Below, piece by piece: positions 7,426 to 11,192 of a stretch of 64,000 bases of DNA (positions are counted from its first letter, which is position 1; the number at the start of each line of letters is the position of its first letter). Where the stretch lies: NCBI GenBank assembly GCA_013178095.1, contig JABLXK010000003.1:248001-312000 (forward strand), given 5' to 3'. The stretch is from Anaerolineae bacterium. GTDB lineage: Bacteria > Chloroflexota > Anaerolineae > Anaerolineales > Anaerolineaceae. The notes beneath the pieces were generated by a model. It worked only from the letters and a program-made list of their open reading frames with translations. It was not told the DNA's origin and did no database searches. The position numbers and the translations under genes were made by a program.

Positions 7426-8724
7426 TCAAGCCGCATCAAGCGCCTGATTGAGATCCCACAGAATATCCTCGATATCTTCCAACCCGATGCTGAGCCGGAT
7501 GAAGTCCGGCGAAACGCCGGCGCTCTTCAATTGTTCTTCATTTAATTGGCTGTGCGTAGTGGTGGCGGGATGGATCGCCAGGCTTTTAGCGTCGCCCACG
7601 TTGGCCAGATGGGTGAACAACTTCAGGCTCTCGATGAACTTGCGGCCGGCAGGTATGCCGCCTTTGATGCCAAAGCCCAGCATGGCGCCCGGACCTTTGG
7701 GGAAATACTTGCGGGCGGCTTCATAATCCGGGCTGTCCGCCAAACCCGGATAAGCCACCCAGGCAACCTTTTCGTGTTTTCTGAGGAATTCCGCCGCTTT
7801 TTGAGCATTGGCAACGTGGCGATCCATGCGCAGGCTGAGCGTCTCCAGCCCTTGCAGCAGCAGGAAAGAATTAAATGGCGAGATGCAGCCTCCAAAATCG
7901 CGCAGAATCTGCACGCGGGCTTTGGTGATAAAAGCCGCCGCGCCCAGCGAAGCGAAAACCAGGCCGTGGTAGGAATCGTCCGGTTGGTTGAAATTAGGAA
8001 AACGCGGATTGCCTTCCCATTTGAAATTGCCGCCATCCACGATCACGCCGCCGATGGAGGTGCCGTGCCCGCCGATGAATTTGGTGGCGGAGTGCACCAC
8101 GATATTGGCGCCATACTCAAACGGCCGCAGCAGGTAGGGGGTGGCGAAGGTGTTGTCGATCATCAGCGGGATGCCGAATTCCCGCGCGATCCCGGCCACT
8201 TCCTCCAGCGGGAAGACGTTGATGAGCGGATTACCCAGCGATTCGCCGTACAGGATCTTGGTGTTGGGGCGGATGGCTTTGCGGAAATTCTGCGGATTGC
8301 GCGAATCCACAAAGCTGACCTCGATTCCCAGCCTCGGAAAGGTGTAGGCGAACTGGGTATAGGTACCGCCATATAGCGTAGAAGCCGAGACGATGTGGTC
8401 GCCGGCGCCCACCATTGCCAGGATAGCCTGCGCCTGGGCGGCATGGCCTGAGGCCACCGCCAGCGCACCCACACCGCCCTCCAGGCTGGCAACGCGCTGT
8501 TCGAACACGTCGCTGGTGGGGTTCATGATGCGCGTGTAAATATTTCCGGGTTCTTTTAACATGAACAGGTTGGCGGCGTGCTCCGCGCTGTCGAAAGCGT
8601 AGGAAGTGGTCTGGTAGATCGGCACCGCCATGGAGCGGGTAGTCGGGTCGGGCTGCTGGCCGGCATGCAGTTGCCGGGTGTTGAATCCGAATTGTCTGGT
8701 TTTCTCTTTGTCAGTCATCATCAT
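7426..8724 (-). CDS. metY: O-acetylhomoserine sulfhydrylase MetY
   Basis: A PLP enzyme of the Cys/Met metabolism family that makes homocysteine from O-acetylhomoserine and sulfide. The 432-residue length fits MetY. Family features include FNTRQLHAG near the N-terminus, the SGHAAQAQAI PLP-phosphate region, DNTFATPYLLRP and the PLP-binding Lys in HSATKFIGGHG. The gene follows metA by about 50 bases and must share its SAM-riboswitch-controlled transcript. A Glu in MetA (see that entry) also predicts acetylhomoserine as substrate, so the two genes agree. Confidence 0.94.
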   Translation of the reverse strand: MMMTDKEKTRQFGFNTRQLHAGQQPDPTTRSMAVPIYQTTSYAFDSAEHAANLFMLKEPGNIYTRIMNPTSDVFEQRVASLEGGVGALAVASGHAAQAQAILAMVGAGDHIVSASTLYGGTYTQFAYTFPRLGIEVSFVDSRNPQNFRKAIRPNTKILYGESLGNPLINVFPLEEVAGIAREFGIPLMIDNTFATPYLLRPFEYGANIVVHSATKFIGGHGTSIGGVIVDGGNFKWEGNPRFPNFNQPDDSYHGLVFASLGAAAFITKARVQILRDFGGCISPFNSFLLLQGLETLSLRMDRHVANAQKAAEFLRKHEKVAWVAYPGLADSPDYEAARKYFPKGPGAMLGFGIKGGIPAGRKFIESLKLFTHLANVGDAKSLAIHPATTTHSQLNEEQLKSAGVSPDFIRLSIGLEDIEDILWDLNQALDAA

Positions 8725-9794: not shown

Positions 9795-9898
9795 TCCTCT
9801 CATCTTCCAGAATCATCTGCCGGAATTGGCACCTTGTTATTTTGAACAGGTTGTCGAGGCTTCAACGGGCCGGTCCCTCAGCCTCTCTGGATAAGAGT
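9795..9898 (-). promoter_or_regulatory. SAM-I (S-box) riboswitch
   Basis: The minus-strand sequence holds the S-box landmarks in order: CTCTTATCCAGAGAGGC, then TGAGGGACCGGCCC, TTGAAGCCTCGACAACC, AAGGTGCCAATTCC and GAAGATGAGAGG, which closes P1 with CTCTTATC. It controls metA-metY. In the family SAM binding stabilises P1 and allows the downstream terminator to form. Confidence 0.95.
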
Positions 9899-9965: not shown

Positions 9966-10901
9966 TCAATCCACGAGGTTGGCAAATAACGGCGTGCTCA
10001 GGTAACGCTCGCCGAACGAAGGGATGATCACCACGATCAACTTGCCCTTATTTTCCGGCCGGTTGGCCACTTGCAGCGCCGCCCAGGTGGCCGCGCCGGA
10101 CGAGATGCCGACCAGCAGGCCCTCCTCCCTGGCCATGCGCCGCGCGATTTCAAAAGCGTCGTCGCCTTTCACGCGGATGATCTCGTCGTAGATGGCAGTG
10201 TTCAGCACCTGGGGGACAAAACCGGCACCGATCCCTTGCAGCGGATGGGGACCTTTTTGCCCGCCGGAAAGCACCGGGGAGGCATCCGGTTCAACCGCAA
10301 TGGCCTTGAAGGATGGTTTGCGCGCTTTGAGCACCTCGCCCACGCCGGTGATGGTCCCGCCGGTGCCCACGCCGGCCACCAGGAAATCGACCTGTCCATC
10401 GGTATCGCGCCAGATCTCCTCAGCGGTGGTGCGCCGGTGGATGGCCGGGTTGGCAGGATTGTTGAACTGCTGCGGCAGGAAGTACCGCTCAGGGTCGCCG
10501 GCAACCAGTTCCTCCGCGCGTTTGATCGCGCCCGGCATGCCCTCGCTGCCCGGGGTGAGGATCAACTCCGCCCCGTAGGCGCGCAGCAGCATGCGCCTTT
10601 CCTTGCTCATCGTATCCGGCATGGTCAGGATTAGCTTATATCCGCGCGCCGCCGCCACCATCGCCAGGGCAATGCCGGTGTTGCCGCTGGTGGGTTCCAC
10701 GATGACGGTATCTTTCTTCAGTTTGCCGTCATTCTCCGCCGCATCGATCATGGCCGCGCCGATGCGGTCCTTAACACTGTGCGCCGGGTTAAAAAATTCC
10801 AGTTTGGCCGCCACTGTGGCAGCCGCGCCGGCGGTCAGGCGGTTCAACCGCACCAACGGGGTGTTCCCGATCAGTTCAGTCACGTCATTCGCGATTTTCA
10901 T
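9966..10901 (-). CDS. cysK: Cysteine synthase A (O-acetylserine sulfhydrylase)
   Basis: A PLP enzyme that makes cysteine from O-acetylserine and sulfide. The 311-residue protein has the PLP Lys in [11 protein letters not shown], the substrate-binding [10 protein letters not shown] loop, the [10 protein letters not shown] phosphate-binding loop and a C-terminal [12 protein letters not shown]. The start at 10901 is chosen for GGAG five bases upstream; a longer in-frame Met at 10916 lacks a ribosome site. A 250-nt leader with its own promoter, a Met/Cys-rich mini-ORF and an intrinsic terminator precedes it, suggesting attenuation. It is separate from the metA-metY transcript. Confidence 0.94.
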
Positions 10902-10940: not shown

Positions 10941-10968
10941 AAAAAAGCCCGAGAGCATTCTCTCGAGC
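10941..10968 (-). terminator. Terminator in the cysK leader
   Basis: On the minus strand GCTCGAGAG pairs with CTCTCGGGC around a 4-nt loop (10947-10968) and is followed by six U (10941-10946). It lies about 40 bases before the cysK start codon, so transcripts must escape it to express cysK. Confidence 0.85.
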
Positions 10969-10983
10969 CATTCTGCGAGGTTC

Positions 10984-11081
10984 TGCTCCGCCAATTTTTA
11001 TTTGGGGAGCAATTCGCCGTTCTGGAAGTTTATCTTTGCGCAGTTATGCTGGCAAATGACTTCCGGGGCAAAGCTGCTCCC
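10984..11081 (-). promoter_or_regulatory. Mutually exclusive stems in the cysK leader
   Basis: Three segments can pair in competing ways. Segment A (GGGAGCA, 11075-11081, inside the leader peptide ORF) pairs with segment B (TGCTCCC, 11005-11011), enclosing nested stems GGAAGT/ACTTCC and TTTGC/GCAAA. Segment B can instead pair with segment C (GGAGCA, 10984-10989), extended by CCAA/TTGG. This is the geometry of an attenuator. How A, B and C influence the terminator is not resolved; only a 4-bp contact between C and its 5' arm is visible. Confidence 0.55.
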
Positions 11082-11113
11082 AAAAGCATGGCCATACACA
11101 TGCACATCATCAT
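11030..11113 (-). CDS. Putative Met/Cys-rich leader peptide upstream of cysK
   Basis: A 27-codon ORF beginning MMMCMCMAM: six Met and two Cys in the first nine codons, then LLGAALPRKSF and a TAA stop. It lies about 45 nt after the predicted transcription start and overlaps one arm of the leader's alternative stems. A Met/Cys codon cluster ahead of cysK fits a leader peptide whose translation senses charged tRNA-Cys or tRNA-Met. The Shine-Dalgarno site is weak, which is a reason for caution. Confidence 0.55.
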   Translation of the reverse strand: MMMCMCMAMLLGAALPRKSFASITAQR

Positions 11114-11163
11114 TTTAGCGAAAAAAACCGTTTCCATCACAAGTTTCCAGTTAATTGAGCAGA

Positions 11164-11192
11164 TTTATAGACGATTTTTACCCGCCTGTCAA
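11164..11192 (-). promoter_or_regulatory. Promoter of cysK leader
   Basis: On the minus strand TTGACA (11187-11192) and TATAAA (11164-11169) are separated by 17 bases. Transcription should start near 11157. Confidence 0.85.

Follow-up and report, generated by a model that had tools for sequence, protein, structure and literature searches.

A probable tRNA-Cys-sensing attenuator upstream of cysK in Anaerolineales and its diverged copy in an Anaerolineae contig

What signal controls cysK in this Anaerolineae genome? The gene, encoding O-acetylserine sulfhydrylase (cysteine synthase A), lies on the minus strand at 9966 to 10901 of the window, the whole 64-kb stretch of DNA analyzed (TIGR01139, 488.6 bits against a cut-off of 351). 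Upstream of it is a leader of about 250 bases on the same strand, to which all coordinates below refer unless marked otherwise. The -35 element TTGACA (11187 to 11192), read from the sequence and recurring in relatives, and the -10 element TATAAA (11164 to 11169), 17 nt away, match 11 of 12 consensus bases, in agreement with the promoter that a sequence-only reading of this DNA had placed ahead of a short ORF. A generic promoter scan misses the site because it accepts only -10 elements whose last base is T. The same reading gave the ORF 27 codons, beginning MMMCMCMAM (MMMCMCMAMLLGAALPRKSFASITAQR, 11113 to 11030); the frame holds, but the likelier start is eight codons further upstream, since the ATG at 11137 (METVFFAKMMMCMCMAM...) is nearer the promoter and is preceded by GGAAA. 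The 35-codon ORF so defined (METVFFAKMMMCMCMAMLLGAALPRKSFASITAQR, 11030 to 11137) starts about 27 nt past the -10 element and carries two putatively regulatory Cys codons, TGC (11102 to 11104) and TGT (11096 to 11098), in a C-x-C arrangement. Just before cysK stands the terminator already described in that reading, an intrinsic hairpin (TTTTTGTTAA, 10946 to 10969) of 10 pairs, 6 of them GC, with a loop of 4 and a T-run after it. We argue that the leader is very probably a ribosome-mediated transcription attenuator sensing charged tRNA-Cys, and the window copy a diverged member of an element found across the order Anaerolineales.

Is a cluster of sulfur amino acid codons in a single leader more than chance? 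To see how relatives are arranged, cysK was located in 60 of them and in 80 named loci, and the upstream DNA was read. Without any model, this showed that most Anaerolineales have a short ORF in which a single codon separates two Cys codons, and that GC-rich sequence comes next. Leader peptides such as MLTCMCLRRG, MISCICLRRGL and MFTCSCLRRGL, each running to its stop codon, are typical, and the cultured type strain Levilinea saccharolytica has MLTCMCLGRDL, again up to the stop. The C-x-C ORF before cysK, whose absence from related leaders would have spoken against the sequence-only reading, is thus conserved, and the recurrence of the Cys codon pair and of the stem architecture in most relatives indicates that the observation in the window is more than chance. 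A covariance model built from 26 such leaders, R1, matches 180 of 301 genomes and 78 of 112 genera of Anaerolineales. Of 301 genomes drawn from across the phylum, R1 matches 25, namely 21 from the same order and, more weakly, 4 other Anaerolineae, and none of the matches listed comes from another class. At the cysK loci from Betaproteobacteria and Actinobacteria that the search also returned, Cys-containing ORFs are only scattered and lack the C-x-C pattern; one mycobacterial cysK locus among those read carries a poly-Cys ORF like the ones reported from mycobacteria.

The codons themselves point to the amino acid that is sensed. All 89 distinct leaders contain TGy-NNN-TGT, a pattern that R1 favors through its TGC and TGT codons and that was first seen without the model. 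The middle codon encodes Leu in 33 leaders, Met in 24, Ser in 13, Ile in 12, Val, Thr and Ala in 2 each and Phe in 1; it is free at all three positions and both Cys codons are constant, implying that the leader senses cysteine rather than methionine. The original proposal, in which both amino acids are sensed, could appeal to MMMCMCMAM in the window copy, to MCMCMAM in the sister genome G035 and to MMMCMC in leader L012. The middle Met is replaced in 65 of the 89 leaders, though, and methionine synthesis at this locus has its own SAM riboswitch, leaving dual sensing highly improbable; Met sensing was rejected on this lack of conservation. Of the codon cluster first thought to be beyond chance, it is therefore the Cys pair that recurs in most relatives, and the supposed Met/Cys leader-peptide attenuator stands as a leader-peptide attenuator for Cys. 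The second Cys codon is always UGU and the first is UGC in 86 leaders and UGU in 3, a bias also seen in the common-form leaders collected without the model; reading by wobble or a constraint on the RNA are candidate reasons for the constant UGU.

Furthermore, the ORF is specific to one frame. In the Cys frame, 88 of 89 leaders have an ORF with an ATG start that covers the site; for the other two frames, which served as a control, the counts are 3 and 12. The stop codon follows 7 to 9 codons past the first Cys in 79. A TTGACA-16/18-TATAAT site scoring 10 to 12 of 12 is found in 82 of the 89 leaders and in 5 of 89 mononucleotide shuffles, and a U-run is present in 79. The leaders thus contain what appears to be a translatable, and presumably translated, short ORF containing codons for the amino acid that the pathway makes, as in trp-type attenuators. 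Could the ORF instead be incidental to a riboswitch binding cysteine or a sulfur compound? Conserved GC-rich segments, a long-range helix between two segments termed A and C, terminators and the sulfur gene context would all suit such an RNA. A frame-specific ORF with a start and a near stop, and fixed Cys codons around a freely varying one, would not, and on this frame and codon evidence the riboswitch was rejected; we give it only the slimmest chance. Nor did Rfam return a relevant family for the window leader, at gathering thresholds or with E up to 10, with no T-box or SAM riboswitch match, and no Rfam family matched in the loci of ten relatives.

How is the RNA of a leader-peptide attenuator organized here? 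The common form runs in the order C-x-C, A (within the ORF), stop codon, B, D5, E5, C, E3 with a U-run and D3 with a U-run. In the window, segment A (GGGAGCAG, 11074 to 11081, within the ORF) forms an 8-bp helix with segment C (TTGCTCCC, 11005 to 11012), a helix also present in the sister and covarying in relatives. Segment B (ATTTGCC, 11051 to 11057), here also within the ORF, pairs with E5 (GGCGAAT, 11012 to 11018), as indicated by complementarity, folding and a shuffle test. C is complementary, and in folding pairs, either to A or to segment F (GGAGCAG, 10983 to 10989), a feature of the window variant that also pairs weakly with the 3' arm of the terminator. The sequence-only reading had noted competing stems that reuse GGGAGCA, TGCTCCC and GGAGCA, and GGGAGCAG, TTGCTCCC and GGAGCAG are indeed mutually complementary. 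Its first stem is the A:C helix, which is kept and covaries across relatives; its second, C:F, exists but among the leaders examined occurs only in the window copy and the sister; and B:E5 had been missed.

Pairing of own partners was compared with that of partners swapped in from other leaders, a test that ignores kinship. In 33 leaders this partner-swap gave z values of 5.6 for A:B, 7.4 for A:C, 4.3 for B:E5, 8.2 for E5:E3 and 17.5 for D5:D3, with 0.1 and 0.4 for the negative controls B:C and A:E5; with 89 leaders, again ignoring kinship, A:B reached 6.9 and A:C 6.4. In an alignment fitted to the A:C helix, double changes in its columns amount to 29 cells, a count attained by 0 of 500 shuffles; the A:C column count of a MAFFT alignment was attained by 7 of 500, both tests ignoring kinship. 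The A:B column count was attained by 0 of 500 shuffles and only marginally exceeded them in a larger alignment (17 of 500), with kinship ignored as well. The register of B:E5 slips, and with the alignment register held fixed this helix therefore does not exceed shuffles. The E and D stems of relatives, followed by U-runs, are intrinsic terminators, as is the window hairpin. On this comparative evidence the leaders appear to hold mutually exclusive pairings backed by covariation, a further trait of trp-type attenuators, and the best-supported antiterminator in relatives consists of two nested helices, A:C around B:E5. A:B was considered as the main anti-antiterminator and set aside, as folding shows that A:C and B:E5 displace it once C is made. 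Some leaders before cysK are non-canonical (MCCCSCLLRR in L041, CTCLCSCA in L018/L044 and CMCICLGQG in L023/L027); they have more Cys codons, lack the common A segment and look like further variants of the device.

Another intriguing question is raised by the peptide, in which C-x-C-[LP]-[RG]-R-G is strikingly conserved. Such conservation would be expected if the ribosome were arrested not at hungry codons but by the nascent CxC(L)(R)RG peptide responding to a small molecule. The R-G residues, however, track an RNA segment: in L012/L038 GGCGGGGC is retained and read in another frame (NGGAK), suggesting that the RNA rather than the R-G residues is conserved there, and L104/L118 carry CHMRNS and the window copy has no R-G, all with A:C pairing retained. 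Arrest by the peptide is accordingly very unlikely, and a nascent-peptide motif RRG was disfavored on the L012 evidence. Sensing of charged tRNA-Cys at the codons remains our preferred reading.

In the mechanism that we propose, RNA polymerase would transcribe the leader with a ribosome translating the short ORF at the same time. With Cys-tRNA plentiful, the ribosome would pass C-x-C and reach the stop codon, masking A and B; E5 would then be free for the terminator (in the common form E5:E3 and D5:D3, in the window form C:F together with the 10969 to 10946 hairpin), and transcription would end before cysK. With Cys-tRNA scarce, it would stall at UGC or UGU and leave B exposed; B would then pair with E5, an enclosing A:C helix would add support where it can form, and the polymerase would read through. 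Early A:B pairing is probably a pause hairpin. What the sequences display is the conserved ORF with its codons, the covarying helices, the terminators and the gene context; from these we infer the translation, the stalling, the direction of the response (starvation turning cysK on) and the continued switching of the window copy.

Folding with a masking ribosome, for which a 3' footprint of about 13 nt was assumed, is consistent with this scheme. When the RNA reaches C, nearly every leader folds A:C enclosing B:E5 (the 33 relatives average 9.3 and 11.7 expected pairs), and the window copy does likewise (9.4 and 9.6). Mean B:E5 pairing in relatives is 11.7 pairs with the ribosome at UGC or UGU and 0.8 with it at the stop codon. 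Once the RNA reaches E3, moving the ribosome from a stall at UGC to the stop codon raises the terminator stem from 0.43 to 0.80 and lowers B:E5 from 0.48 to 0.07; the shift is weaker (0.59 and 0.32) when only a stall at UGU is considered. In full-length RNA at equilibrium the outer terminator stem dominates every ribosome state (0.79 to 0.90). Since the outer stem wins once D3 is made, antitermination must be kinetic, acting during transcription, which is when known attenuators switch.

How well does the window copy fit the family? Its C-x-C, A:C (GGGAGCAG:UUGCUCCC) and B:E5 (AUUUGCC:GGCGAAU) are kept, and the sister keeps A:C together with a B:E5 helix in other letters (CUGGUGGU:ACCAUCAG). 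Its fold beats 200 of 200 dinucleotide shuffles (z -4.2), and its summed A:C and B:E5 pairing, over segments chosen after inspection, tops 300 of 300 (299 of 300 in the sister). The E and D stems are replaced by C:F and then a separate terminator. R1 gives the window just 12.6 bits, through the TGCATGTGT block alone; no copy in the window's genome reaches E 0.001, and with E up to 10 the two best matches there look coding and have no C-x-C leader, the third being the window leader, ahead of four weaker ones. Among 147 genomes of the family, the window variant has exact matches only in this genome and the sister, besides 13 matches with two mismatches. In the sister leader a second C-M-C comes right before the stop codon (SYPCMCR), so that Cys codons flank segment A.

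With a ribosome stalled on the growing RNA of the window copy, A:C and B:E5 are favored until F emerges, return in part while the 3' arm of the terminator is made and then yield to the terminator; a ribosome that has reached the stop codon leaves C:F formed throughout. A:C and B:E5 vary with ribosome position but do not overlap the terminator, F pairs with it weakly, and the terminator forms in all modeled equilibrium states. This different terminator module makes the predicted switch of the window copy less certain than that of its relatives. The family might then be a real attenuator of which the window holds a decaying or re-purposed remnant, its terminator constitutive or its switch lost. 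The divergence, the weak coupling to A:C and B:E5 of a terminator predicted in every ribosome state, and the lack of the leader before one cysK copy in each of two same-genus genomes (G002 and G003) fit such decay. An open frame with both Cys codons, a near-consensus promoter, A:C and B:E5 both preserved, the latter in different letters in window and sister, and pairing beyond 300 shuffles speak against it, and we consider a remnant unlikely. A diverged but presumably still working attenuator is the reading that we retain.

The leader is not confined to cysK. Second and third copies precede genes for CBS (TIGR01137), CysM-type synthases, a sulfurtransferase with SufE, and DUF4395 proteins, and cysE and MoeB/ThiF genes follow within the operons; representatives were assigned by family search and the remainder by sequence resemblance. 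On these assignments, the shared theme of the leader-bearing genes is cysteine and sulfur transfer, that is, a cysteine/sulfur regulon. The DUF4395 genes, which encode membrane proteins, carry the same cysteine leader (L138, L140 and L145), and this suggests a role for DUF4395 in sulfur or cysteine metabolism. The evidence leans toward an undescribed, order-wide class of Cys-tRNA attenuators that have a nested-helix clamp as antiterminator starting in the ORF, serve a whole cysteine/sulfur-transfer regulon and exchange terminator modules.

Within the window, the leader neighbors a SAM riboswitch (RF00162, 87.3 bits, 9797 to 9897) with its own terminator (9783 to 9758), a separate device before the metA-like gene, as the sequence-only reading had stated. 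Its core, a leader-peptide attenuator upstream of cysK and beside a SAM riboswitch, is supported by comparison with relatives. A second methionine gene follows metA at 7426 to 8724 (O-acetylhomoserine sulfhydrylase-like, by resemblance). Elsewhere in the window, a c-di-GMP-I-GGC riboswitch (RF03167, 66.1 bits) lies on the plus strand at 41164 to 41251, and the gene right after it encodes a protein of 554 aa resembling EAL-type c-di-GMP phosphodiesterases.

In the literature searched, the only records of cysteine leader-peptide attenuation concern Actinobacteria and a single cysS motif of Alphaproteobacteria; in a phylum that has received little study, the Anaerolineae leader would mark a cysteine regulon spanning an order, tie unannotated genes (DUF4395 and sulfurtransferase-SufE operons) to cysteine status and offer a two-helix antiterminator testable in L. 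saccharolytica. The kind of mechanism, ribosome-mediated cysteine attenuation, is already known, and it is this Anaerolineae RNA that is absent from Rfam and from the descriptions searched; no Chloroflexi or Anaerolineae case was found there, in a search mostly of freely readable papers, whose silence is no proof of novelty.

Classical trp, his and ilv attenuators combine a leader peptide holding codons for the product, mutually exclusive RNA segments and an intrinsic terminator, and distinguish a stalled from a completed ribosome. The Anaerolineae leader shares this logic but would sense cysteine, and has two nested predicted antiterminator helices, one starting in the ORF, and in its common form two nested terminator stems. 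The uORFC-8-2 motif before cysS in Rhodobacterales is similar in its short ORF with two Cys codons, its stems and its U-run terminator, and Cys-tRNA-sensing attenuation has been proposed for it (PMC8632094). That alphaproteobacterial motif has adjacent Cys codons 14 and 15 and two stems (PMC8632094), in contrast to the C-x-C, cysteine and sulfur genes, long-range A:C and B:E5 helices and nested terminators here, which place the Anaerolineae leader outside its definition. In actinobacterial cys leader peptides the Cys codons form runs close to the stop, and a conserved terminator hairpin is lacking (PMC1262725); mycobacterial polycysteine leaderless small ORFs are cysteine-responsive attenuators according to Canestrari et al. 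2020, as cited in PMC9094748. A Cys-rich short ORF before cysteine genes and, as far as that citation goes and as predicted for the Anaerolineae, cysteine-responsive attenuation are common to these and the Anaerolineae leader; its two spaced Cys codons, an ATG away from the promoter and intrinsic terminators set it apart from the polycysteine small ORFs. The adjoining SAM riboswitch likewise exerts transcriptional control over sulfur amino acid genes, but by direct ligand binding with no leader peptide, and the cysK leader does not match RF00162. With two such sensors side by side, one locus would read both ends of the sulfur amino acid supply.
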